The notes under the pieces: generated by a model
Told to the model about the DNA's origin: nothing
The model's database searches: none
Seen by the model: the letters and a program-made list of their open reading frames with translations, nothing else
Made by a program: the position numbers and the translations under genes
Assembly (NCBI RefSeq): GCF_003576455.2
Contig: NZ_CP032869.1
Span: 992,001 to 1,056,000, forward strand
DNA: 64,000 nucleotides
Direction of reading: 5' to 3'
Source: Mucilaginibacter celer
Lineage (GTDB): Bacteria; Bacteroidota; Bacteroidia; Sphingobacteriales; Sphingobacteriaceae
Shown: in pieces, positions 11,422-41,677 of the stretch
Layout: each line of letters starts with the position of its first letter
Numbering within the stretch: position 1 is the stretch's first letter

Positions 11422-11459
11422 TGATTTGTGCGGGAGATTGACCTGTAAATTATAACCTT

Positions 11460-12650: not shown

Positions 12651-12668
12651 GATTTAAAAAACAGTAAT

Positions 12669-14120: not shown

Positions 14121-14131
14121 ATCAATTAATC

Positions 14132-16126: not shown

Positions 16127-16165
16127 TCAAATTAATCAATTGAATTTCATTTAATAACAAATAAA

Positions 16166-16597: not shown

Positions 16598-16599
16598 AC

Positions 16600-17058: not shown

Positions 17059-17062
17059 TGTT

Positions 17063-17910: not shown

Positions 17911-17917
17911 TAACATC

Positions 17918-19669
17918 ATGGCCGATAGCCGCACCATAGAAACCACCAGGCCCGGTACCGTTGTTACCCCCGTTGTAAAAATTGAGGGTACCGAAATACC
18001 GCGTACCATGCAGGTGGAAGCTATTGTGATTGATAAAGGCGTGAACCGCATAGCCGCCGCCAAACTGGTAATTATGGATGGCGACAGCTCGGCCCAAAAG
18101 TTTGATGCCAGCAACGGCGACCTGTTTGTGCCGGGAAAAAGTATCGAGATACTGTGCGGTTATCAATCTGATAACTACACCCTGTTTAAAGGTGTGGTGA
18201 TAAAACATAGCATCAAGCTGCGCAATAGCGGCTCGCAACTGGTAATTGAATGCCGTGATAAGGCCATAGCCATGACTCTGGCCCGCCACAGCAAATACTT
18301 TGGCGAAAAGGTGAAGGACAGTGATGCTATTACAACTCTGGCTGGCAATTACAGCGGTTTAACCGCTGATGTAGCCACCATGAACGTAACCACAAGCGAT
18401 TTGGTACAATACGAGGCCACCGACTGGGATTTCATCACCGCCCGTGCCGAAGCAAACGGCATGCTGGTTTACACTGATGATAATACGCTATCCATCAAAG
18501 CCCCTGAATTAAGCGGCAGCCCGGTTGTAGAGTTATCATTTGGTGCCACCATGCTGGAGTTGGATGCCGAGATCGATTCACGGATCCAGTTCCCGTCCGT
18601 AACCGGCCGCACCTGGAACCCGGCCTCGCAGGAGATTGAAAAGGTTGATGCCAATCCGCCATCAAGCGAGATGAACGGCAACCTTACGGCCGATGACCTG
18701 GCAGGTGTGTTTAACGAAAAGGATTTTCACCTGAACCATGGAGGCAAGCTTACCCAACCCGAGCTACAGGCCTGGGCAACAGGCATGAAACTGAAACAGG
18801 TGCTCTCCAAAGTACGCGGCAGGGTGAAATTTAAAGGCATCCACACCGTAAAACCCGGTATGATCATTAAGCTGAGCAACCTAAGCGACCGCTTTAACGG
18901 CAACGCTTTTGTAAGCCACATCCAACACCATGTATCCGCCGGAGACTGGCAACTGGAAGTACAGTTTGGATTAGATCCGCAATGGTTTGCCGAAAAATTT
19001 GAGACCAGTATCAAACCAGCCTCAGCATTGATCCAGGCGGTACCCGGCTTGCAGATAGGGGTAGTAACCCAACTGGAAAGCGACCCGGATGGCGAATGCC
19101 GCATACTGGTACGGATGCCGGTAATCAGCCCGGACGAGCAGGGCATCTGGGCCCGGGTAGCCACCTTAGATGCCGGTAAAGAACGTGGCAGTTTCTTTTT
19201 GCCCGAGGTGGGCGATGAAGTGGTAGTAGGCTTTTTAAACAGTGATCCCCGCAAACCCGTGGTACTGGGCATGCTGAACAGCAGCAACAAAACCGCGCCG
19301 CTACAGGCTGCCGATGCCAATAACCAAAAAGGCTTTGTAACCCGCAGCAAAATGAAAATGATTTTTGATGATGATAAAAAATCAGTCACTATCGAAACGC
19401 CTGCCGGGAAAAAAATAACGATGGATGAAGATGCCGGGGCGATTGAGCTGAAGGACGAAAACAACAACTCCATCAAAATGAACAGCGACGGGATCACCAT
19501 CGAAACCAAAGGAAAACTGGTTTTAAAAGCCCAGCAGGATTTTAATGCCGAGGGAATGAATGTAAGCCTGAAAGCCAATACCTCGTTCGCGGCCGAAGGA
19601 TCGGCCGGTGTGGAGGTGAAATCGAGCGGAACGGCAACGCTTAAAGGTGCAATTGTACAAATAAACTAA
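17918..19669 (+). CDS. VgrG-like spike protein (Afp8/Pvc8-like)
   Basis: A 583-aa trimeric spike/hub. N-terminal gp27-like region (1-365) with QLVIECRDKAIAMT and YEATDWDFITARAEANGMLVYTDD; an OB-fold gp5 domain (about 378-455: VVTQLESDPDGECRILVRMP ... FFLPEVGDEVVVGFLNSDPRKPVVLG); and a C-terminal triple-beta-helix needle of short repeats (GKKITMDEDAGAIELKDEN, GITIETKGKLVLKA). No toxin domain extends past the needle, which ends at AIVQIN and is capped by the next gene's PAAR protein. Confidence 0.93.
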   Translation: MADSRTIETTRPGTVVTPVVKIEGTEIPRTMQVEAIVIDKGVNRIAAAKLVIMDGDSSAQKFDASNGDLFVPGKSIEILCGYQSDNYTLFKGVVIKHSIKLRNSGSQLVIECRDKAIAMTLARHSKYFGEKVKDSDAITTLAGNYSGLTADVATMNVTTSDLVQYEATDWDFITARAEANGMLVYTDDNTLSIKAPELSGSPVVELSFGATMLELDAEIDSRIQFPSVTGRTWNPASQEIEKVDANPPSSEMNGNLTADDLAGVFNEKDFHLNHGGKLTQPELQAWATGMKLKQVLSKVRGRVKFKGIHTVKPGMIIKLSNLSDRFNGNAFVSHIQHHVSAGDWQLEVQFGLDPQWFAEKFETSIKPASALIQAVPGLQIGVVTQLESDPDGECRILVRMPVISPDEQGIWARVATLDAGKERGSFFLPEVGDEVVVGFLNSDPRKPVVLGMLNSSNKTAPLQAADANNQKGFVTRSKMKMIFDDDKKSVTIETPAGKKITMDEDAGAIELKDENNNSIKMNSDGITIETKGKLVLKAQQDFNAEGMNVSLKANTSFAAEGSAGVEVKSSGTATLKGAIVQIN

Positions 19670-19678
19670 TAGCAAAAA

Positions 19679-19969
19679 ATGGGAGCAGCAGCACGGATAG
19701 GCGATATGCACGTATGCCCTATGTTTAACGGTCCGGCACCTCATGTAGGTGGGCCTGTGATGGGGCCGGGGGTACCAACGGTACTTATTGGCGGCATGCC
19801 TGCCGTTTGCGTGGGCGATATGTGTACTTGTGCCGGTCCGCCCGATTCGATCATCAAGGGCTCGGCAACGGTGATGATAGGCGGAAAGCCCGCCGCCCGT
19901 ATGGGCGATAGCACAGCCCACGGCGGATCGATAGTGTTAGGCTGCCCAACAGTAATCATCGGAGGCTGA
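19679..19969 (+). CDS. PAAR-domain spike tip (Afp10-like)
   Basis: A 96-aa protein that is almost only a PAAR domain: MGAAARIGDMHVCPMFNG, a Gly/Pro-rich core (GPGVPTVLIGGMPAVCVGD, VMIGGKPAARMGDSTAHGG) and a CPTVIIGG end. His and Cys residues (His11, Cys13, Cys50/52, His83, Cys91) are candidates for binding the metal at the tip. It sharpens the VgrG-like needle; no effector extension is fused. Confidence 0.93.
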   Translation: MGAAARIGDMHVCPMFNGPAPHVGGPVMGPGVPTVLIGGMPAVCVGDMCTCAGPPDSIIKGSATVMIGGKPAARMGDSTAHGGSIVLGCPTVIIGG

Positions 19970-19974
19970 AGAAA

Positions 19975-20397
19975 ATGGAACCAAAAATAGCTTTTATAGG
20001 CAGGGGCTGGAGTTTTCCGCCCAGTTTTGATAACCACGGCGGTAAAGTAGAAATGCTTACCGACGAGGCCGATATCGAAAGCAGCCTCGGCATATTGTTC
20101 ACTACCCGCCTGGGCGAGCGCGTAATGCAGCCAACTTTTGGCTGCGATTTACAAAATGTAGTTTTTGAGGCCGTGAACCTCACCCTTAAAACCTACATCA
20201 AAGATTTGATTGAAACCGCCGTACTGTACTTTGAACCAAGGATAACGCTTAACAGCACCGACGTTGACAGCAGTATGGATAATGAAGGGATTTTGCTTAT
20301 CAAGCTTAATTACACGGTGCGTACCACCAATTCGAGGTACAATTACGTGTTCCCTTTTTATAAAAATGACCTTACCAGTATCATGACCAACAAATAG
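19975..20397 (+). CDS. gp25-like baseplate protein (Afp9/Pvc9, GPW/gp25 family)
   Basis: A 140-aa baseplate wedge protein. Core pattern: IAFIGRGWSFPPSF (5-18), DIESSLGILFTTRLGERVMQPTFGCDLQNVVFE (35-67), with the family's RPGER-like RLGER, and EPRITLNSTDVD. In T4 and relatives it joins the wedge and starts sheath polymerisation. It sits 5 bp after PAAR and 8 bp before the baseplate J-like gene, the usual Afp9-Afp11 order. Confidence 0.92.
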   Translation: MEPKIAFIGRGWSFPPSFDNHGGKVEMLTDEADIESSLGILFTTRLGERVMQPTFGCDLQNVVFEAVNLTLKTYIKDLIETAVLYFEPRITLNSTDVDSSMDNEGILLIKLNYTVRTTNSRYNYVFPFYKNDLTSIMTNK

Positions 20398-20405
20398 AAC
20401 TAACC

Positions 20406-23400
20406 ATGGCCTGTAACGATAAAAATCCGCTTCAACGTGATGGCTCAAGCCAGTCGCAGCGCTTTCTGAAAGCGCTCGATCCAGCCTACGCCCCAATTGA
20501 GGAATTGGGCATGGAAGATTGGCTAACGTTCGCGGCCGCTTATGCTGATAAACTTAACTACTACTCGCTTAAAGACAGCGACCACCCGCAGGGCGACTGG
20601 AAACCCTTCTTTATCCAGGATAAAAAAGCCCTGCAGGATTTTCTGAAACAGGTTGAAGTAAAAATACAGAATGCTGATCTGGGCTTTCCCGATTCGAGCA
20701 TCAAAAGCGATGTAGAGCCACACCTGGCGCTGTTCATGAGCTTTATTATGCTCCTCCAGCACTCAAAAGATGCCCTGAACCAGTTTACCGGCCGCCACCT
20801 CGATTTTTATTTTAAGCAGGTATTACAACTCCGTAATCGCCCCGAGGTACCCGATAAGGTACACGTAATATTTGAACTGGCCCGCAACCTAACCGGTTTC
20901 CTTTTGCCGCAAGGCACCGCGCTTGATGCCGGGAAGGATAAAAGCACTAAACCGCGGCCCATAGTATTTAAAACCAACAGCGAACTGGCCGTAAACAGCG
21001 CCACCATAGCCGCCATGAAAAGCTGGTACAGGGCTGATGCTGATAAACGGGTTGCTTATGCCGATGTAAGTTTTTCGGCAGATGGTTTGGGTACGCCTTT
21101 TAAGGATGATGTGCCTAAATGGAACCCTTTTGGCAATGTTAGCTGGCCAACGGCTTCGATGGGTTTTGCCTTTGCATCAAAAGTTTTATTGATGAACGAG
21201 GGCGACCGGACCATCACCCTAACGCTTAACTTTAACGCGCTGGATACCATTGATGCGACCGCGCTGCCGAAATTGTTTAAAGCATTTGTAACCTCCGAGA
21301 AAGACTGGATCCAGGCAGATTTTCCAACCACAGATGCTTTTGTGGTTAAAAGCAACCAGTTGATTATTACGGTAAACATCCCCGCAAAGGCCAAGGCTAT
21401 AGTACCGTACGACCCGGCAATTCATAAAGAACATTACAAAACCGATTTTCCGGTTATCCGCCTGCTGATGAATGTGCAGGATAAGGCTTACCCGGTTTAC
21501 CAGGCGCTGCGCAAAGCCAAGCTTAACAATGTAACTATTGATGTGCAGGTAAAAGGGATGAAAAACCTTTCGGTAGAGAACGATAACGGCAAAGTTGATC
21601 CATCCAAACCGTTTTTTCCTTACGGGGCACTTCCGCAGGCCGGTTCAAACCTGTATATCGGCAACGCCGAAATCTTCCAAAAAAACTGGACACAGATCAC
21701 CCCAAATATTGAATGGAAGGGTGTACCTGCCGATTTGAAAAGTTATTACACCGCGTACCGTGTAAACTATCTGCTGCCAACCTTAACGCCCAGCGGCTAT
21801 GATATTACTGCGGCCGCGAGCAGCGAACCTAAAGATGAAACCGGTGGCGGCAGGGTAATAACCGGGAGCGATAGTTTCAAAGCAAAAGTTTATTATATCA
21901 AAGAGGGCAAATGGGTAGCCCCGGCAGTGAGCGAGGTAAATGCGCTGAGCAACACATTTAATATTGATCAGCCTAACAATAATCCGTCTGTAAACACCGC
22001 CGCGCCTTTCATTAATAAATACCTGTATTTTAATGTATCCGGCAGTTATAATCACGGCAGCGGTCCGCTGGCCGAAAAGGCTTTGGTGCAGCAGTATGTG
22101 CAGCCTATGCAGGCCTTTTTTCCGGTGGTTGGGTTTATCGGCTTTCAGCGGGCAAGTACCCCGGTGCAAACCCAAACCGAAAATTTTTCGGGTGCGGTAA
22201 AGGATAATTACATCCGCCTGAGCCTGCAGCGCGATTTTTTGCATAACGCGTACCCGCAATTATTTGCTATCGCGCTTACCGATACATCAAAAACAAAAAT
22301 AATCCCGAAGCAACCTTATACGCCGGAGATTTCATCGTTAACCCTTGATTACAAAGCATCGGCCAGCAATAAAATTGACGAGCTAACAGGCACTAACGAC
22401 AATTCTGGTTTGTTGACGGACTACATTAACCACAGCGTACAGTTTTTTCATGAAACCCCTTTTGGCCAGGCCGAGCAGCATGCTTTCCTTAAAAAACAAT
22501 ATCACGGTTTAATTGCCGATAATATCAGCGCCATGCCTAAAGTGCCTGATCTGGCCGGGTTTTATATTGGTATCGCGGATATAGAAACCGGCTCGGTAGC
22601 CAGCATTTTATTCCAGGTTGCTGAGGGGAGTGAAGATGCGCTTTCGCCATCCTTTACCGATACTATCCAACCTAAATGGTACTACCTATCAGGCAATGAA
22701 TGGCTGGCTTTGGATAAGAAAAATATCATCAGCGATGATACCAACGATTTTTTACGATCAGGCATTATCCGGTTTTTGATCCCCGAAGGTGCTACTACCA
22801 ATAACACTTTTCTTAACCAAAGCCTTACCTGGCTCGGCGTAGAGTTACCCGCTTCGGTGAGTATCAATTCGGTTTGTAAATTCATAAACGTACATATCCA
22901 GGCCGCAGAAGCTGAGTTTGATGATAATGACAATGAGTTATCGCACCTGGCAAGCGGCCTGCCCGCAGGCACCATCAGTAAATTGGTGGACAGGCTGCCG
23001 CAGATCAAATCCATCACACAGCCTTATGCGTCCTTTGGTGGATTGTTGCCTGAAGATGATGGAGCTTTCAGATTGAGAGTGAGCGAAAGGCTTAGGCATA
23101 AACACCGGGCCATCACCATTTGGGATTATGAGCATCTGGTAATGGCACAATTCCCGCAGGTGTTCAGGGTAAAATGCCTTAACCATACTGATGATAGCAG
23201 CGAGGTGGCACCCGGCAGCGTGCGGGTGGTGGCTATCCCTGATATCCGCAATCAGATCAGTTTTGATCCTTTTAAACCCCGCGTAAGCAAAAACACTTTG
23301 AGCGAGATCACCAAATACCTCTCGGGCCTCAACTCGCAGCATGTTGATTTGCTTACGATCAACCCCGATTATGAAGAAGTGATCCTATCCTTTAAAGTGA

Positions 23401-23708
23401 AATTTTATTTCGGACTGGATGAAAACCTGTACGCGGCCAAACTGAATACCGACCTGATCAATTACCTGTCGCCCTGGGCTTTTAACCAGAACGCCGATAT
23501 TGATTTTGGCGGCACGCTGTACAAAAGCGTAATGATCCGCTTTATTGAAGAACTATCTTATGTTGATTATATAGCCGATTTTAAAATGTACTTCACCGCC
23601 ACCGGGCCCGCAAATCCCGATGTGCTGGAGGCAGGCAACTCGAAAGCCATCCTGGTATCGGCCAAACAACACATTATTGATACCCAAACCGTACCCGTAT
23701 GCCCATGA
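20406..23708 (+). CDS. baseplate J-like wedge protein (Afp11/Pvc11-like)
   Basis: An 1100-aa wedge component. The N-terminal third is typical of Afp11-type proteins (MEDWLTFAAAYADKLNYY, HLALFMSFIMLLQHSKDALNQFTGRHLDFYFKQVL). The conserved gp6/J-type end is at about 870-1075: FRLRVSERLRHKHRAITIWDYEHLVMAQFPQVFRVKCLN followed by a ferredoxin-like VILSFKVKFYFGLDE segment. The middle (about 180-850) has beta-rich insertions. Its last codons overlap the start of the Afp12-like gene. Confidence 0.9.
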   Translation: MACNDKNPLQRDGSSQSQRFLKALDPAYAPIEELGMEDWLTFAAAYADKLNYYSLKDSDHPQGDWKPFFIQDKKALQDFLKQVEVKIQNADLGFPDSSIKSDVEPHLALFMSFIMLLQHSKDALNQFTGRHLDFYFKQVLQLRNRPEVPDKVHVIFELARNLTGFLLPQGTALDAGKDKSTKPRPIVFKTNSELAVNSATIAAMKSWYRADADKRVAYADVSFSADGLGTPFKDDVPKWNPFGNVSWPTASMGFAFASKVLLMNEGDRTITLTLNFNALDTIDATALPKLFKAFVTSEKDWIQADFPTTDAFVVKSNQLIITVNIPAKAKAIVPYDPAIHKEHYKTDFPVIRLLMNVQDKAYPVYQALRKAKLNNVTIDVQVKGMKNLSVENDNGKVDPSKPFFPYGALPQAGSNLYIGNAEIFQKNWTQITPNIEWKGVPADLKSYYTAYRVNYLLPTLTPSGYDITAAASSEPKDETGGGRVITGSDSFKAKVYYIKEGKWVAPAVSEVNALSNTFNIDQPNNNPSVNTAAPFINKYLYFNVSGSYNHGSGPLAEKALVQQYVQPMQAFFPVVGFIGFQRASTPVQTQTENFSGAVKDNYIRLSLQRDFLHNAYPQLFAIALTDTSKTKIIPKQPYTPEISSLTLDYKASASNKIDELTGTNDNSGLLTDYINHSVQFFHETPFGQAEQHAFLKKQYHGLIADNISAMPKVPDLAGFYIGIADIETGSVASILFQVAEGSEDALSPSFTDTIQPKWYYLSGNEWLALDKKNIISDDTNDFLRSGIIRFLIPEGATTNNTFLNQSLTWLGVELPASVSINSVCKFINVHIQAAEAEFDDNDNELSHLASGLPAGTISKLVDRLPQIKSITQPYASFGGLLPEDDGAFRLRVSERLRHKHRAITIWDYEHLVMAQFPQVFRVKCLNHTDDSSEVAPGSVRVVAIPDIRNQISFDPFKPRVSKNTLSEITKYLSGLNSQHVDLLTINPDYEEVILSFKVKFYFGLDENLYAAKLNTDLINYLSPWAFNQNADIDFGGTLYKSVMIRFIEELSYVDYIADFKMYFTATGPANPDVLEAGNSKAILVSAKQHIIDTQTVPVCP

Positions 23709-26416
23709 CCGATCAGTTAACCATACCCAAAGAAATTGATACCAGCCTTGGGCCTGAGTACAATACCCTGCGCACCGAGGGCATGCAGCACATCCGCGAC
23801 CTCGCCAGCGCCATCTGGACGGATTATAACGTGCACGATCCGGGCATCACCACGCTCGAGATGCTGTGCTACGCCCTTACCGATCTTAACTATCGCATCA
23901 CCCTGCCGGTAGAAAACATAGTTGCTGTTGACCATGACAACACCACCAGCATGCACCGGCAATTTCTATCGGCCATTAAAATATTACCAACCTACCCGGT
24001 TACCGCCGATGATTACCGCCAGCTTTTTGTGCGGATTGATGGGGTACGCAATGCCTGGATAAAAAAATCACCGCACAGTATAATCGCCAATTATAAACAA
24101 CCGGATGGTAAAGCTTTACTGCGCTACGCCAAACCCGCAGAAGCTGCAAAAAGCGGTGAAGAAGTGAAATTTGATCTGAAAGGCATCAACGATATCCTGA
24201 TAGATTTTGAAGATTTTCCCGAATTGGAAGGTGATGAAACCAAAATAAAAGCCAGGCAGGATGGCATCATCAAACAAATAAAATCGGTTTATCACTATTT
24301 CCGCGAGTTGTGCGAAGATCTTGACCAGGTTAAAGCCGTTGATAAACAGGAAATAGTGGTTTGTGCCGAGATAGAGCTGCAACCCCAGGCCGATCCGGAA
24401 ATGATCTGGGCGCAGATCATGTTCAACATCGAGCAGTATTTAACACCCGATATCCGCTTTTACCTATTGCAGGAATTGTTGGACAAAGGCATGCAGCCCG
24501 ACGAGATATTTGAAGGCCCGGTAATGGATTTTGCCAACCTGCAAGGCATCGATACCCAGTTTGCTAAACAGGGTTTTATTATCCCTGCCGAGCTTGCCGC
24601 TTCGCAATTGCGTACCGAAGTCCGCCTGTCTGATCTATACCGTATCATTATGGAGATTGACGGCGTGCGGCTGGTAAAACGCATCTCATTCGGTTTCTGC
24701 GGATGTACCGCGCCGCAGAGTGAGGTAGCCGATAAAATCTACAAATCAAACGAATGGCTGCTTTGCGTAGCCGCCGGGTATAAACCGGTGCTTTGCGAAA
24801 CCAACTCATCCTTCACTTTTTATAAAGATGTTGTCCCCATCGAACTAAAACAAAACGAAGCCGATGCCGACCTGGATAAACTCCGCAAGGATTGGCAGGA
24901 AAGCGTTGAAGCGAAAAAAATAGTTGACCTGCCCGTACCCGAAGGCGATTACCGCGACATAGGCCACTACGAAACCCTGCAAAACCAGTTCCCCGAAAAC
25001 TATGGCGTCTCGCCGCTGGGCTTATCAGACACCGCCACTACCGAGCAACGCTCGCTGGCGCTGCAACTGAAAGCTTACCTGTTATTTTATGATCAGGTGC
25101 TGGCTAACTATTTCGCTCAGTTATCAAACGCCAGGGTGCTTTTAACAGCCGATGACAGCATCCGCAAAACCTATTTCGGCAACGTAGTGAACAGCGTGCG
25201 CGATGCTGATAAAATTGTAGAGGGCTACGCGCAATGGCAGCAAATGGTTGATGGTGTGATTACCGATATACGCCAGGACAACTATCCCGAAAGGAAAAAC
25301 AAATTTTTGGATCATTTACTGGCCCGCTTTGCCGAGCAGTTTAACGAGTACGTATTTTTAATGTACCGTATTTATGGCGAGGATTACCAGCGCAACATCA
25401 TCAGGCATAAAGTAAAGTTTTTGAAAGACTACGACCAGATGAGCATTTGCCGCGGCGCCGGGATGGACCTCTACAACACCAAAACCACCGATGAGCAACT
25501 GGTAAACGTATCGGGCATGGAAAAACGCATCTCTATGCAATTGGGCTTCTCTAACTATAAAATGCAGCAACTGGCCGTTGAAGATTACCTGCTCTTTAAA
25601 TCGGATGCTACTCATTACAACTGGACTATCTCGCAGCTGGGCGTGGTGAAATTTAAAGGCAATGCCAATTTTTCCAAAGAGATTGATGCCTATGAAGATC
25701 TGGGCCTGGTATCTGTTCTGGCTTGCGATAGGGAAAATTACCGCTTAAGTCCGGGTGCTACGGCAGGCAAATATGTTTACAACATTGCCAACGCGAAGGG
25801 TACGCTGCTTACTAATAATGATATGGAGTTTAGCGCCGCGGCTATTGAAACCGAGATTGCCTACATCATCAAATTTATGCAGAACGATTTTAAGATGGAG
25901 GGCATGTACGTGATTGAAAACATCCTGCTTCGCCCGCCATTTGATTACGCCGGCGATGATAAAACCAATCACCAGTTTATGCCGGTTTGCCTTGATCCCA
26001 ACGGCGAGTTCTGTAAACCGCTTGATCCGTATTCGTTCCGCGTTTGTGTGGTATTGCCGGGCTACAGCGTAAGGCTGCGTGATACCGCGTTCCGGGCCTA
26101 TGCCGAGCGGCTGATCCGTACTGAAACACCCGCGCATATCTTACCAAGGATTTGCTTTATCGGCCACGACCAGATGGTGGATTTTGAAAAGCTTTACAAA
26201 GAATGGCTTGCCGCCAAACATATAGCCGTAAGCACCGATACCTCGATGGACCCGGTACTGAACAGCAAATTTATCGACCTGATAGAAAAACTGTACACCG
26301 TTTACCAGCAGGGCCAGCTAAGCGATTGCGACGATGATACCCAGGAAACCAACCCGATCATATTGAATAAAACCAGCCTTGGCACCTTGCAGGGTGGTAC
26401 AAATAAAAACAGTTAA
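23705..26416 (+). CDS. baseplate wedge protein (Afp12/Pvc12-like)
   Basis: A 903-aa partner of the preceding wedge protein. Family hallmark near the start: IRDLASAIWTDYNVHDPGITTLEMLCYALTDLNYRI (about 27-62), then two further repeats of a baseplate fold and a C-terminal IENILLRPPFDY...CVVLPGYSVRLRDTAFRAYAERLIRTETPAHILPRICFI, typical of these proteins. The ATG at 23705 overlaps the upstream stop as ATGA, suggesting coupling; ATG at 23699 would add two residues. Confidence 0.88.
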   Translation: MTDQLTIPKEIDTSLGPEYNTLRTEGMQHIRDLASAIWTDYNVHDPGITTLEMLCYALTDLNYRITLPVENIVAVDHDNTTSMHRQFLSAIKILPTYPVTADDYRQLFVRIDGVRNAWIKKSPHSIIANYKQPDGKALLRYAKPAEAAKSGEEVKFDLKGINDILIDFEDFPELEGDETKIKARQDGIIKQIKSVYHYFRELCEDLDQVKAVDKQEIVVCAEIELQPQADPEMIWAQIMFNIEQYLTPDIRFYLLQELLDKGMQPDEIFEGPVMDFANLQGIDTQFAKQGFIIPAELAASQLRTEVRLSDLYRIIMEIDGVRLVKRISFGFCGCTAPQSEVADKIYKSNEWLLCVAAGYKPVLCETNSSFTFYKDVVPIELKQNEADADLDKLRKDWQESVEAKKIVDLPVPEGDYRDIGHYETLQNQFPENYGVSPLGLSDTATTEQRSLALQLKAYLLFYDQVLANYFAQLSNARVLLTADDSIRKTYFGNVVNSVRDADKIVEGYAQWQQMVDGVITDIRQDNYPERKNKFLDHLLARFAEQFNEYVFLMYRIYGEDYQRNIIRHKVKFLKDYDQMSICRGAGMDLYNTKTTDEQLVNVSGMEKRISMQLGFSNYKMQQLAVEDYLLFKSDATHYNWTISQLGVVKFKGNANFSKEIDAYEDLGLVSVLACDRENYRLSPGATAGKYVYNIANAKGTLLTNNDMEFSAAAIETEIAYIIKFMQNDFKMEGMYVIENILLRPPFDYAGDDKTNHQFMPVCLDPNGEFCKPLDPYSFRVCVVLPGYSVRLRDTAFRAYAERLIRTETPAHILPRICFIGHDQMVDFEKLYKEWLAAKHIAVSTDTSMDPVLNSKFIDLIEKLYTVYQQGQLSDCDDDTQETNPIILNKTSLGTLQGGTNKNS

Positions 26417-30459: not shown

Positions 30460-32034
30460 ATGGGCAAGGGTAAACATATCATCCATAAGCTGGTACTGCA
30501 AATTGAAGTGCCGCGGCGTAATACTGCCCAACAGGTGCAGGACGATGCCGTACGCCACTTTGAGCAGGTACTGTTGAAGCAACTGCAAAAACTGCTGGAT
30601 GAAATGGATGTGCCCGGCCACGTGCTGATAGATAAAATAGACCTCGACCTCGGTTCGGGGAAGCTGGAAACTGTTTTTGAGCAGCTAACAGCAAGCCTTG
30701 GCAAGGCGCTTGATCCGGTGGTAAATCCTTCGGCATTACCCAGTAACGAAGAGGAAGAAGCAGAGATCCTACACCTTACACTAACCGAAGAGCAAAAGGC
30801 ATTTAATGTGTTTATGCATTTTATCAGCACCGGCAGGTTGCCCTGGTACGCAGCTACGGATACCGATTGGCTGCAACAGGAAGCGCTGTGGTTTAGTAAC
30901 CTATTATCGGTTTTAGTAAGAGATAGTGTTTCAAAATCAAAACTGATCAGGCTGTTTAATGCCTCATCAGTAGCCCTGAGCAGGTTGTTTAAGCAATTTG
31001 ATATAGTATCTGTAAAAAAACTAATTGTTGTTTTATTGGCGATAGATGAGCAACAGGTACAGAAAACCGTTGAAGCAATTGCACAGCAAATCCGGTTAAT
31101 TGTTAGGGGAGAAGCGGGAGCGGATGAGCAGCAAACAATAGCTTTGTTAAAGGATGATAGCGGGAACGATAAAGAGAGTGATAAAAACAACCAGGGGGAG
31201 AATGACCCTATATCAATCGGGCATAAAAAAGCCGGTACAAATCTGAATTTTGAGCAGGCTGAATTATCTGAAGTTATTGAAAAAACGCTTCTTGCGCTTT
31301 GGCTCCGTATGGGTACCACTTCTCTTACCTCGGAAGGGTTGGGAAGCAAGATTGCGCTATTAATAATCGATCTGCTGCAAACATCAGCTCGGCCATCTAT
31401 ATCAAAACTGATTGAAATTGCCGATTCTGTAGTCAAAACAGAAACTCCATTACCGGCCTCTCCGCAGAAAAACAAACCAACACTAACTCCCCACAGGGAT
31501 GAGGAAACTAACCCGGTGCAAAAAGAAGACGAAGGCGGCATTTATGTAAGCCAGGCCGGTTTGGTGATCCTGCACCCGTTTTTAGAATACTTTTTTAAAG
31601 ATTTCGGTTTGTTGCAGGATAATGATTTCGTAGATCTGCCGGCGAGGCAACTGGCCGTTCACCTGTTGCATTACCTCGGTACTGGCAATACCAACGCTTT
31701 TGAATACGACTTGTATTTCGAAAAGTTTTTATGCCGATGGCCCGCAGATGAGCCCCTGGAGCGCGAAGTGGAAATCCCTCAAAGGATGCTTGAAGAAGGC
31801 GACAATATGCTGCGCACGGTAATTAAATACTGGAAAGCGCTGAAAAACACCTCGACTGAAGGCCTGCGCGAAGGTTTCCTGAACCGGAACGGAAAACTGA
31901 TAGAAGCCGAACAGCCCGCCCGATTGATTGTGGAACGGATGGATATGGATATCCTGCTATCAACCCTGCCCTGGGGAATGGGCGTAGTTAAATTACCATG
32001 GATGGTTGAACCTTTTTACGTGGAATGGCAATGA
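30460..32034 (+). CDS. eCIS tape measure protein (Afp14/Pvc14-like, CIS_TMP)
   Basis: A 524-aa protein with the start typical of the family, HIIHKLVLQIEVPRRN...LDEMDVPGHVLIDKIDLDLG (6-65), a long helical and variable middle (about 75-340), and a conserved C-terminal block GLVILHPFLEYFFKDFGLL ... ARQLAVHLLHYLGTG ... NGKLIEAEQPARLIVERMDMDILLSTLPWGM. Tape measures set tube length; at roughly 0.15 nm per residue for extended helix the tail would be well under 100 nm (rough inference). The end overlaps the DUF4157 gene. Confidence 0.85.
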   Translation: MGKGKHIIHKLVLQIEVPRRNTAQQVQDDAVRHFEQVLLKQLQKLLDEMDVPGHVLIDKIDLDLGSGKLETVFEQLTASLGKALDPVVNPSALPSNEEEEAEILHLTLTEEQKAFNVFMHFISTGRLPWYAATDTDWLQQEALWFSNLLSVLVRDSVSKSKLIRLFNASSVALSRLFKQFDIVSVKKLIVVLLAIDEQQVQKTVEAIAQQIRLIVRGEAGADEQQTIALLKDDSGNDKESDKNNQGENDPISIGHKKAGTNLNFEQAELSEVIEKTLLALWLRMGTTSLTSEGLGSKIALLIIDLLQTSARPSISKLIEIADSVVKTETPLPASPQKNKPTLTPHRDEETNPVQKEDEGGIYVSQAGLVILHPFLEYFFKDFGLLQDNDFVDLPARQLAVHLLHYLGTGNTNAFEYDLYFEKFLCRWPADEPLEREVEIPQRMLEEGDNMLRTVIKYWKALKNTSTEGLREGFLNRNGKLIEAEQPARLIVERMDMDILLSTLPWGMGVVKLPWMVEPFYVEWQ

Positions 32035-35000
32035 AAACACCGCAAAAGGCAGCACCCGCCAATACCAAACAAGCGCAACCCGGCAATCAGCAGGCTTCGA
32101 AAGATAATTTCTTTTCGGCCACGCATGAAGCCGAACAGGCCAAAGAGTCGCCTTTTTTTGAAGGTCCCCGCGTACAGCGCAAAATGACAGTTAACGAACC
32201 TGGCGATCATTTCGAAAAGCAAGCCGACCAGGTTGCCGATAAGGTCGTGCAACACATCAATCAGCCCAAAACACCAACTGCAACTGCTGCTGCCACTGCA
32301 ACTAATTCCACCCCTGCTACTGCAACTGCCACTGCTACTACCCCTGCAGTTCAAAAAAAGGAAGATAAAAAGGAAGATAGACAGGAAAAAGAGCAAAACA
32401 GCGGCGATAAGGAACTACAGCGCCGCCCCATTTTTGAAAGCGACGGCGACCCGAACGAGGGCAATACATTAAAACGCAGCAGCCAGGCCGCCGTGCCCGA
32501 CGTATCGCCTCAAACCCAGCAAAAAATTGAAAGCAGCAAAGGCGGTGGCGAACCGCTGCCCGCCAACACCCGCGAAGAAATGGAAGGCGCCATGGGTACG
32601 GATTTAAGCGCGGTACGCATCCATAACAACAGCGAGGCTGCCGGGTTGAGTAAAAACCTGCAGGCCCAGGCTTTTACTCATGGTAATGATATTTACTTTG
32701 ATTCGGGCAAGTATGATACGCAGAGTAAACAGGGCCAGCATTTGCTGGCGCATGAGGTGGCGCATACCGTGCAGCAAAGCGGTGGTGGGGTGCAGAAAAA
32801 GGCTATTCAACGGGCGCCAACCATGGGAGTAGCATCTCCGGTTATAGGAGCTGGTATCAAAGCAGATGCTGCCAATCCTATTAACACGCTTTCGCAGGCC
32901 ATCTTTATACCTTCCGTTCAAATTCCCGATCTGAAATATAATATGATGCCTTCAACAAGCAATTACACTTTCAGAAAGGTTAATGGCGGAGGAAAACATA
33001 TAGATGAATGGAACAAGATTGCGGCAACCGGAGGAACCTTTGCAACCGAGTTTGAAACTAAGCGGCAGACTGAGTTAGGTGCGGCGGCAACCTCTGCTAC
33101 GTATTTCTTAACATTGCCAAACGAAAAGAAAGGCACCTCTTTAAGCCATATTATTACCGGCGATGTGGCCGCTATTCAGGCCACCGCGGCGCGGCCATTT
33201 TGGGATGCAGCAGGTGCTAATGTAGATGGCGGTTATGATGTTGACCATAAAGTTGAAACGCAATTAGGCGGGGTGGATGGTACCGAGAACTTCTGGATGC
33301 TGGAATCGGCTACAAACCGGTCGTCGGGCTCAAAGATAGATAAAGAGCTTACTGCGAAAATAACATTGGCTTTATCAACAATGACGATGCCTGCCGGTCA
33401 AACTGCTCCTGATGTTGATACAATTCAAAAAACTTATGCAATTACTGTAGGTAGTTTTACCAAAGGCCTTCCTATTACCGGCCAGGGTAGGGGCTGGGAA
33501 AAAACCGAGATTCAAAATGGCGCGCATTTGAAAGGGCTTTCGTTCCTTTCAACTGCAGAGCAAAATAAATTCAAATTATCTGATGCGCACCGCCTGCAGT
33601 TAATCACCAGCGAAAGGTTTGGTGCGATGGACGGCATACAAGTCCCTTCGGGCACGGTGCAAACAGCAGGCGCCTCTTTTGATATCAAGGGCGTGCAGCG
33701 TAAATTCGGGGCAATAAGTACCAGGAGCGCGCACGTTGAAGTTAAAGATGTAAAGTACACGCACCAGGATCAGCCTGTTATCATGAGTACAGGATCAAAG
33801 GGAAGTGCCACCTTAGAGGCTTTTCAAAATAATGCTTTCTTAGCTCCTGTGGTGCTTGCTGATCATGAAATTACTCCTGTGCCTGGTATTTATGGTGGGC
33901 GTTTCAACAAGGCATCGCTCAAATCCAAGTTAAGCGCAGGGCTTACCGCCAAAGGTTTTAGTCCTATTACAATAGATGATATTGATCTCGATCCAGGCGC
34001 AGGTTTTGTTGGATTTGGTAAGATCAATACAGATGTGCCCTTCATTAAAGGCTCGGCCATTGATATCATATTTGATGCCGATGGGATCAAGATCAGAAAA
34101 GTATTTGATACCGGCGAGTTGAAGGTGCCTCCACCCTTTAAGGTAACCGCGTCATCGTTGGAGGTTTATGCTGCTACATCCGGAATCGGGGTGAAAGGCA
34201 TGGCCAATTTTGAAATAAAAGGTTTAGGAAAAGGTCAGGTGGGGGCCAAAGCTAATTCTGCGGGTGAGTTCGCGCTCGACGGATCTTTTGATTTCGATTC
34301 AAAAACTTTTAACCCGGCGCAAATAAAGGCATCATACGCAAATGGTGAGTTCAGCGCCTCAGGAGATATTGGCATTCCGGCAGGTAAAGTAAAGGGCTTA
34401 AAATCTGCACATATCAAAATTGATTATGCCAAAGGCGTTTTCAATGCTTCGGGCACCGCCGAACCGGATATCAAAGGCGTAAAAAGCGCCGAGATTCATG
34501 TTACTTACGCTAATGAAACACTGGTAATTGGCGGCAGCTTTGTGCTGGATGAAAACATCCCCGGTATCCAAAGCGGCAGCGGTTCGGTGGAGGTTACCCG
34601 CGGGCCTGATGAAATTTACCATGTTAAGGCCAATGGTATTGCCGTACCTAAAATACCAAAAATCAATTCGCAGCTTACCATCGCTTACGATGATGGGGCG
34701 TTAACCATCGAAGGCAAAGCGTCCTATACGGCCGAAAGGGTATCGGGCGATGTAACTGTAGGCGCAACAAACCGTGCCATTGCTGCCGACGGCACACCAT
34801 CGGGACCTGCCGGAGATAAGTTTACCGCTTATGGTTCGGGCAAATTAACCCTTAAAGTTACCGATTGGCTGCAGGCCTCGGCCAGTGTAAAAGTAACTCC
34901 GGCTGGGGAGATCGAAGTTGTGGGTAGGTTAGAGCTGCCATCGGCGGTTGATATCTTCCCGCAAAAATCTATCGATAAACAACTGTTTAAAGCGCCAACT

Positions 35001-35645
35001 ATCGAGATCCCGCTGTTTGCTATCCCATTGGGCCCACGTAGTATCGGCGTGGTGGCAACCATTAACGGCGGGTTGGATTTTAAAGCCAGCGTAGGGCCGG
35101 GGCAGTTAAAAGATGTTTTCGGGCAAATTCAGTTCAATCCTTCGCATCCTGAAGATACGGTGATCTCGGGCGGGGCCAAATTCTCTATCCCGGCTAAGGC
35201 GGGCATCCAGCTACATGCCGATTTGGGTGTGGGCCTGAGTATTGGCGTGGCCAGTGTTACCGGTGGTATTGAGGTGCGGGGTGGTCTGGGTTTGGAGGGA
35301 GAGGCGAGCGCGGCTGTTGATCTGGCCTGGTCGCCAACCAAAGGTTTTGAGTTTAATGCCCTGGGCGAGATAGAGGTACACCCTAAATTCACCTTTGATG
35401 TAAATGCCTTGCTGAGAGCCTCGCTTGATCTGGGCTTGTTCGATATCTCGAAAGAATGGCGTAAAAACCTGGCCTCATTTAGCTATGGTCCTGATCTGCA
35501 GGTGAAAGTGTCGCTGCCTGTTCATTATAAAGACGGCGAACCGTTTGATGTTAAAACCGACGATATAAAAGTTACCTACCCGGATATCAATATCCCCGAA
35601 ATAGCGGGTGGCATAGCCGATAAAGTTAAAGAAGAAATGTTATGA
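32025..35645 (+). CDS. DUF4157 (eCIS core) protein with HNH-like motif and long beta-repeat region; candidate cargo
   Basis: A 1206-aa protein. Residues 1-110: disordered and Thr/Ala-rich, with VQRK and PGDHFEKQADQVADKV, the usual lead-in of eCIS DUF4157 proteins. DUF4157 domain at about 175-255: PLPANTREEMEGAMGTDLSAVRIH, AFTHGNDIYFDSGKYD, and HEVAH (His243-His247), a zinc-peptidase-like HExxH. At 405-440, DVDHKVETQLGG (His408), then GTENFWML and NRSSGSK, resembling HNH/His-Me finger nucleases. From about 640 there are repeated beta segments (FxASGxxxxDIKGVKSAEI). Overlaps the tape measure gene (ATG at 32031 gives a tighter ATGA overlap). Best guess: loaded effector; activity unproven. Confidence 0.75.
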   Translation: MAMKTPQKAAPANTKQAQPGNQQASKDNFFSATHEAEQAKESPFFEGPRVQRKMTVNEPGDHFEKQADQVADKVVQHINQPKTPTATAAATATNSTPATATATATTPAVQKKEDKKEDRQEKEQNSGDKELQRRPIFESDGDPNEGNTLKRSSQAAVPDVSPQTQQKIESSKGGGEPLPANTREEMEGAMGTDLSAVRIHNNSEAAGLSKNLQAQAFTHGNDIYFDSGKYDTQSKQGQHLLAHEVAHTVQQSGGGVQKKAIQRAPTMGVASPVIGAGIKADAANPINTLSQAIFIPSVQIPDLKYNMMPSTSNYTFRKVNGGGKHIDEWNKIAATGGTFATEFETKRQTELGAAATSATYFLTLPNEKKGTSLSHIITGDVAAIQATAARPFWDAAGANVDGGYDVDHKVETQLGGVDGTENFWMLESATNRSSGSKIDKELTAKITLALSTMTMPAGQTAPDVDTIQKTYAITVGSFTKGLPITGQGRGWEKTEIQNGAHLKGLSFLSTAEQNKFKLSDAHRLQLITSERFGAMDGIQVPSGTVQTAGASFDIKGVQRKFGAISTRSAHVEVKDVKYTHQDQPVIMSTGSKGSATLEAFQNNAFLAPVVLADHEITPVPGIYGGRFNKASLKSKLSAGLTAKGFSPITIDDIDLDPGAGFVGFGKINTDVPFIKGSAIDIIFDADGIKIRKVFDTGELKVPPPFKVTASSLEVYAATSGIGVKGMANFEIKGLGKGQVGAKANSAGEFALDGSFDFDSKTFNPAQIKASYANGEFSASGDIGIPAGKVKGLKSAHIKIDYAKGVFNASGTAEPDIKGVKSAEIHVTYANETLVIGGSFVLDENIPGIQSGSGSVEVTRGPDEIYHVKANGIAVPKIPKINSQLTIAYDDGALTIEGKASYTAERVSGDVTVGATNRAIAADGTPSGPAGDKFTAYGSGKLTLKVTDWLQASASVKVTPAGEIEVVGRLELPSAVDIFPQKSIDKQLFKAPTIEIPLFAIPLGPRSIGVVATINGGLDFKASVGPGQLKDVFGQIQFNPSHPEDTVISGGAKFSIPAKAGIQLHADLGVGLSIGVASVTGGIEVRGGLGLEGEASAAVDLAWSPTKGFEFNALGEIEVHPKFTFDVNALLRASLDLGLFDISKEWRKNLASFSYGPDLQVKVSLPVHYKDGEPFDVKTDDIKVTYPDINIPEIAGGIADKVKEEML

Positions 35646-36628
35646 GCAACCAAAGCCAACTAACCGAACTGATAAACCTTGGTGCTATGCACCACCTTAA
35701 CGGCAATTTTGTGGTTGCCGACGAGTACTACGCGAAAGCCGCGGATTTGAATCAGCCAAGTGTAACCCTGCTGAATAACCGGGGCATGCTATTATACCAG
35801 CAACATAAATTTACCGAAGCCTTGCCACTGTTTGAACGGGCTATTGAAATAGATGCGGAGAACGCCACCGCCTGGCTCAATCTTGCCAATACTAAAGTGT
35901 TACTGGCTCAATATGAGGATGCCTATAATGCCTTTAAGCAAAGTATTCGGCTTAAAAATGAGCAGTTTGAAGCCTGGGAAGGGCTTGCTAAATTATATAT
36001 GCTTTCGGCCGATATGGAAAGTGCTGAAACGTGCTGGTTACGGGCCATCGAACTTAGTCCGGCTAATTTAAACCTGTTGATGGGAGTCGCCCAGGTTTAC
36101 CTGTCTACCGGAAAATATAACGAGGCTTTTGATTTGGCAGGGCATGTTTTATCCGAAAATCCACAGCATGGCCGGGCTTGGCAAACCGCAGGGTTGGCGC
36201 AGTTAATGGTAAAAAACTATGCTTCGGCAAAAGCTTACCTCAATCAGTATTTATTGTTTTTTCCTGCGGATGTTGCTGTGCGAAACCATTTGGCCGTAGC
36301 CTGCCTGCAAAGCGGCGATATGCTTGAAGGTGCCGCCGAGTATGAGCGGATATTGGAATATGACCCGGATAATGAAGATGTACGCTTAAATACGGGTGTG
36401 CTTTGTTTGGGTTTTGATCGTTTTGTTGATGCCTTGCAGCATTTTGATCTGCTGCTTGAAAAACATCCGGATAATAACAAAGGGAAGCTATACCGGGGCA
36501 TCGCGTTAGCAAACCTCAGCGAAAAAGCCAGGGCCAGGCAGGTGTTTGAAGATTTGCTGAACAACCAACCCGGCGAATGGGCCGCTCATGCCCAAAAACA
36601 ACTCGATCTGTTAAATAACTTAAACTAA
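35642..36628 (+). CDS. tetratricopeptide repeat protein
   Basis: A 328-aa soluble protein made almost wholly of about nine TPR units (e.g. NNRGMLLYQQHKFTEALPLFERAIEID, AWLNLANTKVLLAQYEDAYNAFKQSI, VRLNTGVLCLGFDRFVDALQHFDLLL). No signal peptide. Its start overlaps the stop of the 1206-aa candidate cargo (ATGA), so the two are made together. TPR proteins commonly act as chaperones or adaptors; a role in loading or holding the cargo is my inference. An immunity role cannot be excluded. Confidence 0.85.
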   Translation: MSNQSQLTELINLGAMHHLNGNFVVADEYYAKAADLNQPSVTLLNNRGMLLYQQHKFTEALPLFERAIEIDAENATAWLNLANTKVLLAQYEDAYNAFKQSIRLKNEQFEAWEGLAKLYMLSADMESAETCWLRAIELSPANLNLLMGVAQVYLSTGKYNEAFDLAGHVLSENPQHGRAWQTAGLAQLMVKNYASAKAYLNQYLLFFPADVAVRNHLAVACLQSGDMLEGAAEYERILEYDPDNEDVRLNTGVLCLGFDRFVDALQHFDLLLEKHPDNNKGKLYRGIALANLSEKARARQVFEDLLNNQPGEWAAHAQKQLDLLNNLN

Positions 36629-36636
36629 CCTATCTC

Positions 36637-37548
36637 ATGAAATCAATCCATACCCGGCAGCCGCTTAACCAGCCACAGGCCGATAAAGCAGAAAAACCTT
36701 TTTTTAACGGCAGCCGCGAAAAAGCCAAACAGGATAACGATGCCTTTTTTCAGGCCCGTAAAATAGATGGTAACCAGGATACCGCCCTCGAGCAGGAAGC
36801 CGATGCCGTTGCCCATAAAGTAACCATGGCGCAGCAGGAACCTACCAAATCATCGCAACGCATGGGCCAGATGAGCGTACAGAAAAAAGGTGCGGATGAA
36901 GAAAAAGATGCCAAGGCCGGGCAGAAAAAGGAGAAGAAAGACGAAAAAGAAGAAGGTAAGCCGCAGAAAAAAGACGAGAAAAAGGAAGAAGAAAAACCAC
37001 AGAAAAAAGAGGAAGAGAAAAAAGATAAAGAGCCGCAGAAAAAGGAAGAGGACAAGAAGGACAAGGAGGGTGTGCAGAAAAAAGAAGAAGAAAAGAAAGA
37101 TAAAGAGCCTCAGAAAAAAGGCGAGGAAGATAAAAAAGACGAAGGCAAGCCGCAGAAAAAAGAAAAAGGCGATGAAAAAGATGATAAGGTCGCCGCGCAA
37201 AAGAAAGAAGAAAAAGGCGGAGGCGTAGAAAAAACGGAAGGAAAGCCCGAGGCACCGGAGGCCAAATTTGATAGGTTACTGAACGAGAGCAAAGGCGGCG
37301 GCAGCCCGCTGCCGGCCAAGGTGCGCGCGCAATTGGAACGCCAGATGAATGCCAATTTTGAGCAGGTAAAGATCCATACCGGGCAGCAGGCGGTTGAGCT
37401 TTGCAACTTATCTAAAGCACATGCCTTTACGCATGGTAATGATGTTTATTTCAATGCCGCCAAGTTTGATCCGGAAAGTACAGCAGGCATGAACCTGTTG
37501 GCGCACGAGTTAACCCATGTTATACAGCAAAACGGTCCGCGTAAATAG
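36637..37548 (+). CDS. second DUF4157 protein with Lys/Glu-rich repeat linker
   Basis: A 303-aa protein in three parts: an N-terminal segment (1-70) with an LEQEADAVAHKV lead-in; a highly charged linker (about 80-215) of Lys/Glu/Asp with a QKK triplet recurring about ten times (PQKKEEEKKDKE-type units); and a C-terminal DUF4157 domain (SPLPAKVRAQLERQMNANFEQVKIHTG, AFTHGNDVYFNAAKF) with HELTH (His290-His294). No toxin domain follows the DUF4157 part, so this may be a core or processing factor rather than cargo. Nucleotide repeats make this stretch prone to slippage. Confidence 0.8.
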   Translation: MKSIHTRQPLNQPQADKAEKPFFNGSREKAKQDNDAFFQARKIDGNQDTALEQEADAVAHKVTMAQQEPTKSSQRMGQMSVQKKGADEEKDAKAGQKKEKKDEKEEGKPQKKDEKKEEEKPQKKEEEKKDKEPQKKEEDKKDKEGVQKKEEEKKDKEPQKKGEEDKKDEGKPQKKEKGDEKDDKVAAQKKEEKGGGVEKTEGKPEAPEAKFDRLLNESKGGGSPLPAKVRAQLERQMNANFEQVKIHTGQQAVELCNLSKAHAFTHGNDVYFNAAKFDPESTAGMNLLAHELTHVIQQNGPRK

Positions 37549-37550
37549 TT

Positions 37551-38879
37551 ATGGTTACAGATTTGAAACAGATAAAAGCGTTATTGCAATATACGGCGGG
37601 CTATCTCAAAGCCAGGCTGCAGGCCGTATTGGGGAGTGAGGTGACTTTTTTACCTCCGTTACTACCCCGGCTAAACCGTGACGGCAGCGGTATCGAAAAG
37701 CTGATTAGCGATTATAACCTGGATAGCAATGAAGTGATCATACTGATGATGGCTTTAGCCCCGCATTTACAGGTTGATTTTTTTGATGAGATCATTCAGC
37801 CCTTTATGCAGGAATCGGGCGATTTTCAGCAACTGGGCGGCGTGCGCAGCCGTAACGGGCGCAGCTTTTTGCCAACCGGGCAAACCGCCGCTTTTATTTT
37901 GGCAGGTGATGACATGGAAAAGCGCCTGGAAATAGCGGCCCTGTTTCACCACCAAAGCAACTTTGCCAAACAGCACATTTTATATCTTGAAGATGTGCCG
38001 GAGGGAGAGCCCGCATTATCCGGCCGGATTGTACTGCAACCGGAATACCTTGAATTGCTGATTACCGGCACGCAATCCATCCCCAAACTAAGCATGAACT
38101 TCCCGGCCCAACACCTCGAAACTACCTATAACTGGGACGACCTGGTGCTTGGCGACACCACCCGCCAGCAAATTGCCGAACTGGAAAACTGGGTAAACTA
38201 TCAGCAGGTTTTAATGACGGATTGGGGCATGGAACGCAAGCTGAAACCGGGCTACCGGGCTCTATTCCATGGGCCGCCGGGAACGGGTAAAACACTTACG
38301 GCTTCGTTGTTAGGTAAATACACCGGCAAGCATGTATTCAGGATCGATCTATCCATGATCGTATCCAAATTTATAGGTGAGACCGAAAAAAATCTATCCA
38401 AGTTATTCGAGAAGGCCGATAATAAAAACTGGATCCTGTTTTTTGACGAAGCCGACGCGTTGTTTGGCAAGCGTACCAATGTAAAAGACGCGCATGATAA
38501 ATATGCCAACCAGGAAGCCTCATACCTGCTGCAAAGGGTTGAACAACACAACGGATTGGTGATATTGGCTACCAACTTTAAAAACAATATCGACGAGGCC
38601 TTTATGCGCCGCTTTCAGTCGGTTATCCATTTCCCGCTACCCAATGCCGAGGAAAGGCATATCATCTGGCAGAAAACATTTCCACCCAAGGCCAATCTTA
38701 ACGGGCATATAAACCTCGAGCAAATTTCGCGTAAGTATGAACTGAGCGGGTCGGGTATTTTAAATGTGGTGCAGTTTGCCTGCCTGCAAATGCTGGCCCG
38801 TAAGGAAGCTAAAATCTCCAACGAGTTGATTTTAGAAGGGATTGAGCGGGAGTATACTAAAGAGAACCGGGTTTGGTAA
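37551..38879 (+). CDS. AAA+ ATPase of the eCIS (Afp15/Pvc15-like)
   Basis: A 442-aa protein with an N-terminal eCIS-specific region (1-200) and an AAA+ module: Walker A GPPGTGKT (about 240-247), Walker B ILFFDEADALFGKR (about 290-303), sensor ATN (about 340) and an arginine-rich FMRRFQSVIHFPLP second region. The family ATPase is conserved in eCIS but not in phages and is thought to help assembly or cargo loading. It is the last gene of the operon, 2 bp after the DUF4157 gene. Confidence 0.93.
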   Translation: MVTDLKQIKALLQYTAGYLKARLQAVLGSEVTFLPPLLPRLNRDGSGIEKLISDYNLDSNEVIILMMALAPHLQVDFFDEIIQPFMQESGDFQQLGGVRSRNGRSFLPTGQTAAFILAGDDMEKRLEIAALFHHQSNFAKQHILYLEDVPEGEPALSGRIVLQPEYLELLITGTQSIPKLSMNFPAQHLETTYNWDDLVLGDTTRQQIAELENWVNYQQVLMTDWGMERKLKPGYRALFHGPPGTGKTLTASLLGKYTGKHVFRIDLSMIVSKFIGETEKNLSKLFEKADNKNWILFFDEADALFGKRTNVKDAHDKYANQEASYLLQRVEQHNGLVILATNFKNNIDEAFMRRFQSVIHFPLPNAEERHIIWQKTFPPKANLNGHINLEQISRKYELSGSGILNVVQFACLQMLARKEAKISNELILEGIEREYTKENRVW

Positions 38880-41670: not shown

Positions 41671-41677
41671 TTTACTT

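Follow-up and report, generated by a model that had tools for sequence, protein, structure and literature searches.

The window analysed here is a 64,000-nucleotide stretch of the Mucilaginibacter celer genome (contig NZ_CP032869.1, positions 992,001 to 1,056,000; coordinates below count from its first letter), in which an open reading frame (ORF) at 32025..35645 on the + strand encodes the predicted cargo protein of an extracellular contractile injection system (eCIS), with 1,206 amino acids (aa), a mass of 127 kDa and an isoelectric point of 5.9. We consider it probable that this protein is an eCIS cargo in which a predicted HNH-like nuclease, apparently an exchangeable cassette, is flanked by a presumed DUF4157 loading end on one side and a predicted long amphipathic β-tail on the other. 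As expected of an eCIS DUF4157 payload, it is encoded within an eCIS gene cluster, between the genes for a tape-measure protein and a tetratricopeptide repeat (TPR) protein; this placement recurs in many of the genomes fetched, as does the wider order of tape-measure, cargo, TPR, (second DUF4157) and AAA genes. A preliminary description of the window, made from its letters, had named the protein as a candidate payload, and both the recurring cluster position and the existence of DUF4157 proteins with recognised nucleases (see below) bear this out.

Presumed loading end and middle domain

A homolog search with the cargo protein, in which the 7,998 candidates with the most words in common were scored, gave 91 matches (P0001-P0091), the closest named ones from Mucilaginibacter. 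The cargo protein and 68 of these matches form a 69-row alignment (A1), which omits the protein's own entry (P0001), two short matches (P0017 and P0061) and P0072-P0091, which have other architectures or match in DUF4157 only. The N-terminal lead-in (residues 1-172, 32025..32540, +) is rich in Gln, Lys, Thr and Ala, is 79-88% identical to that of the close homologs P0002-P0006, P0009 and P0011-P0015, and is presumed to be an eCIS loading signal. It is followed by the eCIS core domain DUF4157 (residues 177-254, 32553..32786, +), with HEVAH at 243-247 and a PF13699 match at E 1.9e-29 (102.1 bits against a Pfam cut-off of 22). The ORF, the lead-in, the HExxH domain and the motifs of the preliminary description are all present, the ORF exactly as given. 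Besides PF13699, no Pfam family matched the cargo protein over its cut-off, and nothing in NCBIfam did; for five related β-tail proteins NCBIfam gave no family at E<=0.1. The second conserved histidine of DUF4157, H219, is replaced by N, S or V in 6 of the 69 rows (P0022, P0029, P0030, P0031, P0034 and P0057), with HExxH intact in all.

Since H243, E244 and H247 are invariant in all 69 rows, the DUF4157 HExxH could be a peptidase and the protein act mainly as a protease. We regard this as very improbable: the toxicity of the cargo Cgo1 of AlgoCIS is reported to be independent of its HExxH motifs (PMC8894135), and DUF4157 is described as associating with many kinds of putative toxin (PMC8213781).

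We instead look to the middle of the protein, where residues 279-545 (32859..33659, +) form a predicted HNH-like nuclease domain, modelled confidently by AlphaFold2 (mean predicted local distance difference test score, pLDDT, 92.6; predicted template modelling score, pTM, 0.86). Its motif, VDHK-E-QLGG ... N-F-W-M-L ... N-x-S-S-G (residues 404-437, 33234..33335, +), is made up of YDVDHKVETQLGG at 404-416, NFWML at 422-426 and NRSSGSK at 431-437. In many of the 69 rows the domain fragment is only 16-25% identical to that of the cargo protein, and H408, Q413, N422, N431, G435, W329, G379 and W393 are invariant in every row; residue 407 is D in 67 rows and E in two, and thus acidic throughout. The same W, W, H, Q, N, N and G are invariant in 28/28 rows of an alignment of the cargo protein with 27 loci from records titled to several phyla (alignments A5 and A6 omit L013, L014 and L044, which nearly duplicate other loci). 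We presume from this conservation that D407, H408, N422 and N431 are catalytic: the His-Me finger set D-H ... N ... H/N, whose residue roles we assume from these nucleases, is present as H408, N422 and N431 in 69/69 rows and as H, N, N in 28/28. The model places a strand at 404-408 (including VDHK), a loop, a strand at 423-427 and a helix at 428-451, which we take to be the order of the ββα-metal (HNH) core.

Comparisons with known families point weakly in the same direction. A profile of the domain searched against 177,635 distinct Protein Data Bank (PDB) sequences found three at E<=10, all of them Cas8f-HNH sequences aligned over the motif (E 0.74-0.85). Pfam HNH matched 8 of the 28 members and HNH_5 two (best E 0.0024), with five other families matching one member each; since the curated cut-off was not reached, we do not file the domain under PF01844. 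In the reverse direction, 18 HNH loci with 186 ORFs were scanned with a profile of the motif, which at E<=10 matched eight ORFs, always where PF01844 itself matches; two of the eight fell under E 0.05, and one (in L098) had an additional second segment elsewhere. As the loci were chosen for PF01844, this is a ranking test. Among 39 weak fold matches in BFVD, 16 were named HNH, the first five included, and one aligned 30 columns at a root-mean-square deviation (rmsd) of 0.8 Å. Searches of solved structures by sequence gave one match at E 1.2 with the single cargo protein, and two proteasome rows (E 0.23 and 0.29) with the full-length profile. A single-sequence search for free-standing relatives of the middle domain, with 7,996 candidates scored, found none at E<=0.001. 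Invariant residues, a confident model and these matches uphold the nuclease-type motif first proposed for the region; as to a predicted nuclease or peptidase fold, the strand-strand-helix order is predicted, and the whole 267-residue domain found no counterpart among solved folds. We therefore predict, from weak sequence and fold matches, that the middle domain is an HNH-like nuclease.

Apparent exchange of the middle cassette

The region that includes the nuclease domain appears to be an internal cassette (approximately residues 266-800, 32820..34424, +, with approximate edges) that is traded between strains, while the DUF4157 end and the tail stay largely constant. Among 22 close rows, that of the cargo protein included, the 231 pairwise comparisons average 79% identity over DUF4157 and 72% over the tail, against 38% over the middle, which is less conserved than the tail in 229 of the 231. 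The clearest mosaic is P0009, which in 40-residue bins is 90-98% identical to the cargo protein over residues 121-240, 15-41% over 281-680 and 92-100% over 841-1206, and which over 281-680 is instead 80-98% identical to P0015. The conflict is equally plain in trees of 21 rows, where the flanks pair P0009 with the cargo protein (97% identity, support 100/100) and the cassette pairs P0009 with P0015 (91% identity, 100/100). Approximately unbiased (AU) tests reject cassette type II as a single clade in the flanks (p 2.85e-39) and a clade of the cargo protein and P0009 in the cassette (p 0.0018); the cassette types and the groups so tested were defined after the identities were known. On the flank tree, on which several forks are poorly supported, cassette type requires at least 10 changes, or 7 for types I and II alone; the cassette tree carries a long-branch warning. 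As a single public sequence, P0009 could be an assembly artefact; the mixture of types is nonetheless seen in several rows. A table of clusters (L144-L153 and L155) agrees, with the middle 24-46% identical to the cargo protein, DUF4157 72-86% and the AAA protein 73-88%. The protein thus shares one trait of polymorphic toxins, a toxin domain that varies beside a constant delivery part, and departs from another in that the toxin is not C-terminal: the cassette, at approximately 266-800, is followed by the conserved residues 841-1206.

A pattern search of genome contigs found at least 589 stretches, at least 556 of them encoding a relative, and the best 80 loci were fetched. In 30 of these 80, the middle-domain profile and the β-tail profile both match, in that order; record titles among the 30 include Nitrospira, Chlorobiaceae, Crocosphaera, Novosphingobium, Sphingosinicella and Polyangiaceae, and some of the records are metagenome-assembled genomes. 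In the genus, 13 of 149 genomes hold a full-length relative at approximately 45% identity or more, and a 14th holds one at 32%; of 395 genomes of the phylum, 12 have the tail and 11 the middle domain, in full-length form in 6 of these 11. The recurrence in the genus, together with the report that Photorhabdus virulence cassette (PVC) particles package effectors of more than 1,100 aa (PMC11297309), does not support the preliminary view that such an arrangement is unusual for cargo that must fit the tube.

The slot between DUF4157 and tail can hold other nucleases. In L183 a recognised family, Endonuclea_NS_2, lies between DUF4157 and the same β-tail (E 8e-07, 29.8 bits against a cut-off of 27), in exactly the slot of the cargo's middle domain. 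Elsewhere the nuclease stands behind the tail: Endonuclea_NS_2 in L186 (E 3e-09, 37.6 bits) and L045 (2.1e-7), and WHH (4.7e-11) with Colicin-DNase matches in L036; in these cases the β-tail accordingly accompanies His-Me nucleases in either position. L188 has a weak Endonuclea_NS_2 match below the cut-off (13.8 bits). In all, 11 ORFs carry the tail (E<1e-10) without the middle domain, and their C-termini are diverse; four other DUF4157 proteins (L050, L059, L077 and L081) also have motif-like stretches close to their C-terminus (E 9e-3 to 5e-7). One further relative, P0072, is 1,852 aa long; residues 1394-1454 match a peptidoglycan-binding domain (1.4e-8), and an Aspzincin match at 1577-1665 stays below threshold.

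The L183 protein bears on whether the middle domain might bind nucleic acid or another ligand without catalysis, a reading that would suit the lack of a nuclease-family match for the cargo's domain and the Asn that takes the place of the third HNH histidine. A recognised nuclease in the same slot speaks against it, as does the retention of all presumed catalytic residues at 16-25% domain identity, and we judge a non-catalytic role improbable.

The predicted β-sheet tail

Behind the nuclease domain, residues 641-1206 (33945..35642, +) form a predicted β-sheet tail, an antiparallel meander according to the DSSP assignment of the AlphaFold2 model and its topology matches. The preliminary description had seen here more than 500 residues of β repeats. 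The β structure holds, with the final approximately 560 residues predicted as mostly antiparallel strands; the repeats hold in part, as modest sequence repeats in the form of β-hairpins of 27-30 residues confined to approximately 747-905 (34263..34739, +; self-alignment), the remaining tail being β-rich without clear repeats. The best self-match (765 against 795) scores 44, where the maxima of 60 shuffles average 29.2 (standard deviation 4.4, highest 43). Three strands of 28-29 residues are predicted at 1046-1073, 1076-1103 and 1107-1135 (35160..35429, +), with one face hydrophobic and one polar, and in β-amphipathicity the tail ranks first among 95 ORFs, at 1.43 against 1.07 for the next (ORFs called mechanically in ten 20 kb stretches, of which L176 was picked for the second eCIS-like locus described below). 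Compared with solved structures by sequence, the tail gave one row, at E 0.27.

The alternation of hydrophobic and polar faces raises the possibility that the β-tail is itself the main toxin, inserting into membranes as a pore or a disruptive sheet; the nuclease would then be an additional activity. We think this rather unlikely: barrel matches superpose at an rmsd of 12-24 Å (50 rows) or have template modelling scores of at most 0.30 (50 rows of another search), and the model of residues 173-1206 (mean pLDDT 80.9) has a pTM of 0.49. A soluble sandwich, a roll or a lipid-binding sheet, such as ApoB100, the top Foldseek row for the tail, would alternate likewise, and a tail common to cargos with different nucleases fits a carrier better.

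That same sharing of the tail behind DUF4157 among cargos with different nucleases would also suit a tail that does nothing in the target and serves only to fill the lumen, or as a packing scaffold by which the cargo stays elongated inside the tube. Its conservation in records titled to several phyla fits as well, as does the report that in AlgoCIS the lumen is occupied by cargo over the whole tube (PMC8894135). A filler would presumably not need one entirely hydrophobic face, and we hold this explanation to be possible, if doubtful. A scaffold role, if real, would be relevant to the threading of very large cargo into a tube, and a membrane role, if proven, to the route of eCIS cargo from tube tip to substrate. 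On the model, the tail may be a shell or a translocation stalk, as was first suggested.

Gene cluster, proposed action and known systems

The eCIS structural genes occupy 10837..23708 (+), with Pfam matches for cap, two sheaths, two gp19 tubes, CIS_tube, a VgrG-like spike, gp25 and baseplate J, the last weak at 20.8 bits, slightly under its cut-off of 21.1; 11460-12650 has no Pfam match. A baseplate-like protein follows at 23699..26416 (+), with a weak, sub-threshold TIGR02243 match (E 7.6e-05, 21.4 bits against a cut-off of 155.8), and then, at 26435-30451, a baseplate-region protein of 1,338 aa for which NCBIfam gave no match over cut-off and whose place is conserved in many clusters. The tape-measure gene (30460..32034, +; PF19268, E 2.9e-109) overlaps the start of the cargo gene by 10 nucleotides (nt), and the cargo stop overlaps by 4 nt the gene for the TPR protein (35642..36628, +), a likely loading factor from its domain match and its place behind nuclease-bearing relatives. 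The AAA ATPase (37551..38879, +; PF00004, E 2.2e-29) is, by analogy, of the type that loads effectors in PVC.

Directly behind the cluster, at 39355-43627, are a TPR histidine kinase and a sigma-54 response regulator, which may control the eCIS, as homologs also follow the cluster in L026 and L059. The same genome (7.15 Mb, a single contig) has a second eCIS-like locus at C1:6867792-6881090, where an eCIS core match accompanies two tape-measure matches that share a frame. Between the TPR and AAA genes of the window lies that of a second DUF4157 protein of 303 aa (36637..37548, +; PF13699, E 1.5e-27 at residues 224-301), 91-92% identical in eight relatives (L144-L151). Its core domain stops two residues short of the C-terminus, so there is no toxin part behind it, and it may be a free-standing accessory that acts in trans.

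The TPR gene stands directly behind 21 of 28 nuclease-bearing relatives and none of 11 tail proteins without the domain (counts that omit L001, L029 and L033, which are the window's own or cut off, retain close kin, and include L023 with 410 nt downstream only). As the next gene, we considered the TPR protein as cassette-specific immunity and rejected this as the better reading. Among 12 distinct genomes (66 pairs) its identity correlates with that of the AAA protein (r 0.98) and DUF4157 (r 0.97), against 0.66 with the cassette, and in the 36 pairs with AAA identity of at least 85% the correlation with the cassette is 0.46; an earlier 14-row set (91 pairs), which held the duplicates L026 = L148 and L005 = L155, had given r 0.71. 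The TPR protein tracks the AAA/DUF4157 backbone rather than the cassette, and is thus more likely a loader or chaperone. Its best 25 of 29 NCBIfam matches, type III chaperone models included, are all under cut-off.

We propose that the cargo protein would be made in the cytoplasm and brought into the tube lumen by its DUF4157 domain and lead-in, in which the TPR protein and the AAA ATPase probably assist; we infer this loading by analogy with AlgoCIS Cgo1/Cgo2 (PMC8894135) and with Pvc15, the AAA ATPase reported to load effectors in PVC (PMC11495950). Sheath contraction would release the cargo into the target. The tail, with its strong alternation, likely keeps the protein extended in the tube and might then engage the target membrane so that the nuclease can act, the weakest step of the scheme. 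In the cutting of nucleic acid, D407 and N431 would bind a metal ion, H408 would act as general base and N422 would orient H408, roles that we assume from the HNH family. Strain-to-strain variation of the cassette is what would be expected of a warhead under target or immunity pressure. A bolder version, in which the β-tail forms a sheet or barrel in the target membrane after injection and lets the swappable internal HNH-like nuclease, of a family not yet described as far as our searches show, reach the nucleic acid, would make this a syringe-borne nuclease with its own membrane passage, a polymorphic toxin whose variable part sits in the middle and not at the tip; we rate it as fairly unlikely.

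Several results weigh against the reading of the protein as a nuclease-bearing eCIS cargo. No BFVD fold match reached 0.001, neither the cargo protein nor its domain matched a nuclease family (0 Pfam families at E<=1; the one RuvC row, at E 0.24, comes from the tape-measure protein), the best PDB sequence match of the domain profile was just E 0.74, and no solved fold corresponded to the domain in its entirety (absence from VIA carries little weight). Several β-tail proteins that lack the domain (L031, L032, L034, L080, P0073, P0074 and two L030 ORFs) had no toxin family over cut-off. Around the full-length relatives encoded in the sphingomonad loci L024 and L038, the window's eCIS proteins matched none of the neighbours in the fetched DNA at E<=1e-8, and the TPR gene is not adjacent in 7 of the 28 nuclease-bearing relatives. 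With only the next gene (TPR) compared against the cassette, no partner for immunity was identified, a result that would fit a eukaryotic target or release by lysis. With the pTM of 0.49 and the poor barrel superposition, we can only infer a membrane role for the tail; presence in particles, toxicity and nucleolysis are predictions.

Of 1,130 predicted DUF4157 toxins, 983 are reported to have no further annotated domain (PMC11297309). For one family of this kind, the analysis offers a testable active site (D407, H408, N422 and N431) and a modular map of presumed loading end, nuclease cassette and shared β-tail, along with evidence for internal cassette exchange. Among the papers listed by searches of the open-licence PMC literature, none was seen to describe the nuclease cassette or the β-tail, an absence that is weak evidence.

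Known HNH/His-Me finger nucleases (PF01844, WHH and Endonuclea_NS_2) resemble the middle domain in the predicted strand-strand-helix order, by weak matches, and presumably in the spacing of D-H ... N ... metal ligand. The middle domain differs in having no Pfam family, in having Asn for the last histidine, and in embedding the motif in a 267-residue domain for which no solved relative was found. Among eCIS cargos, AlgoCIS Cgo1/Cgo2 share with the M. celer protein DUF4157, a disordered N-terminus, encoding in the eCIS cluster and occurrence as two per cluster (PMC8894135). They have been shown to fill the tube lumen; the C-terminal part of Cgo1 is a putative metalloprotease, unlike that of the M. 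celer protein, and the sections of that report drawn on describe no nuclease cassette or β-tail, a separation made by description and not by sequence. Mif1, an effector of metamorphosis-associated contractile structures (MACs), is an eCIS cargo that disrupts membranes and whose model resembled outer-membrane barrels; it differs in its phospholipase activity and length (943 aa), and is likened to the β-tail by description alone (PMC11796346). The TANFOR/BaCT polymorphic toxins also combine a constant delivery part with a varying toxin domain, and differ in their C-terminal toxin, their adjacent immunity gene and, for BaCT, a PD-(D/E)xK and not an HNH nuclease; like the cargo nuclease, BaCT is also found behind DUF4157 (PMC7073777). 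Compared with the eCIS-associated toxins (EATs) as described in the sections drawn on (PMC8213781 and PMC11297309), the M. celer cargo is set apart by a predicted nuclease that is internal and followed by a conserved β-part.

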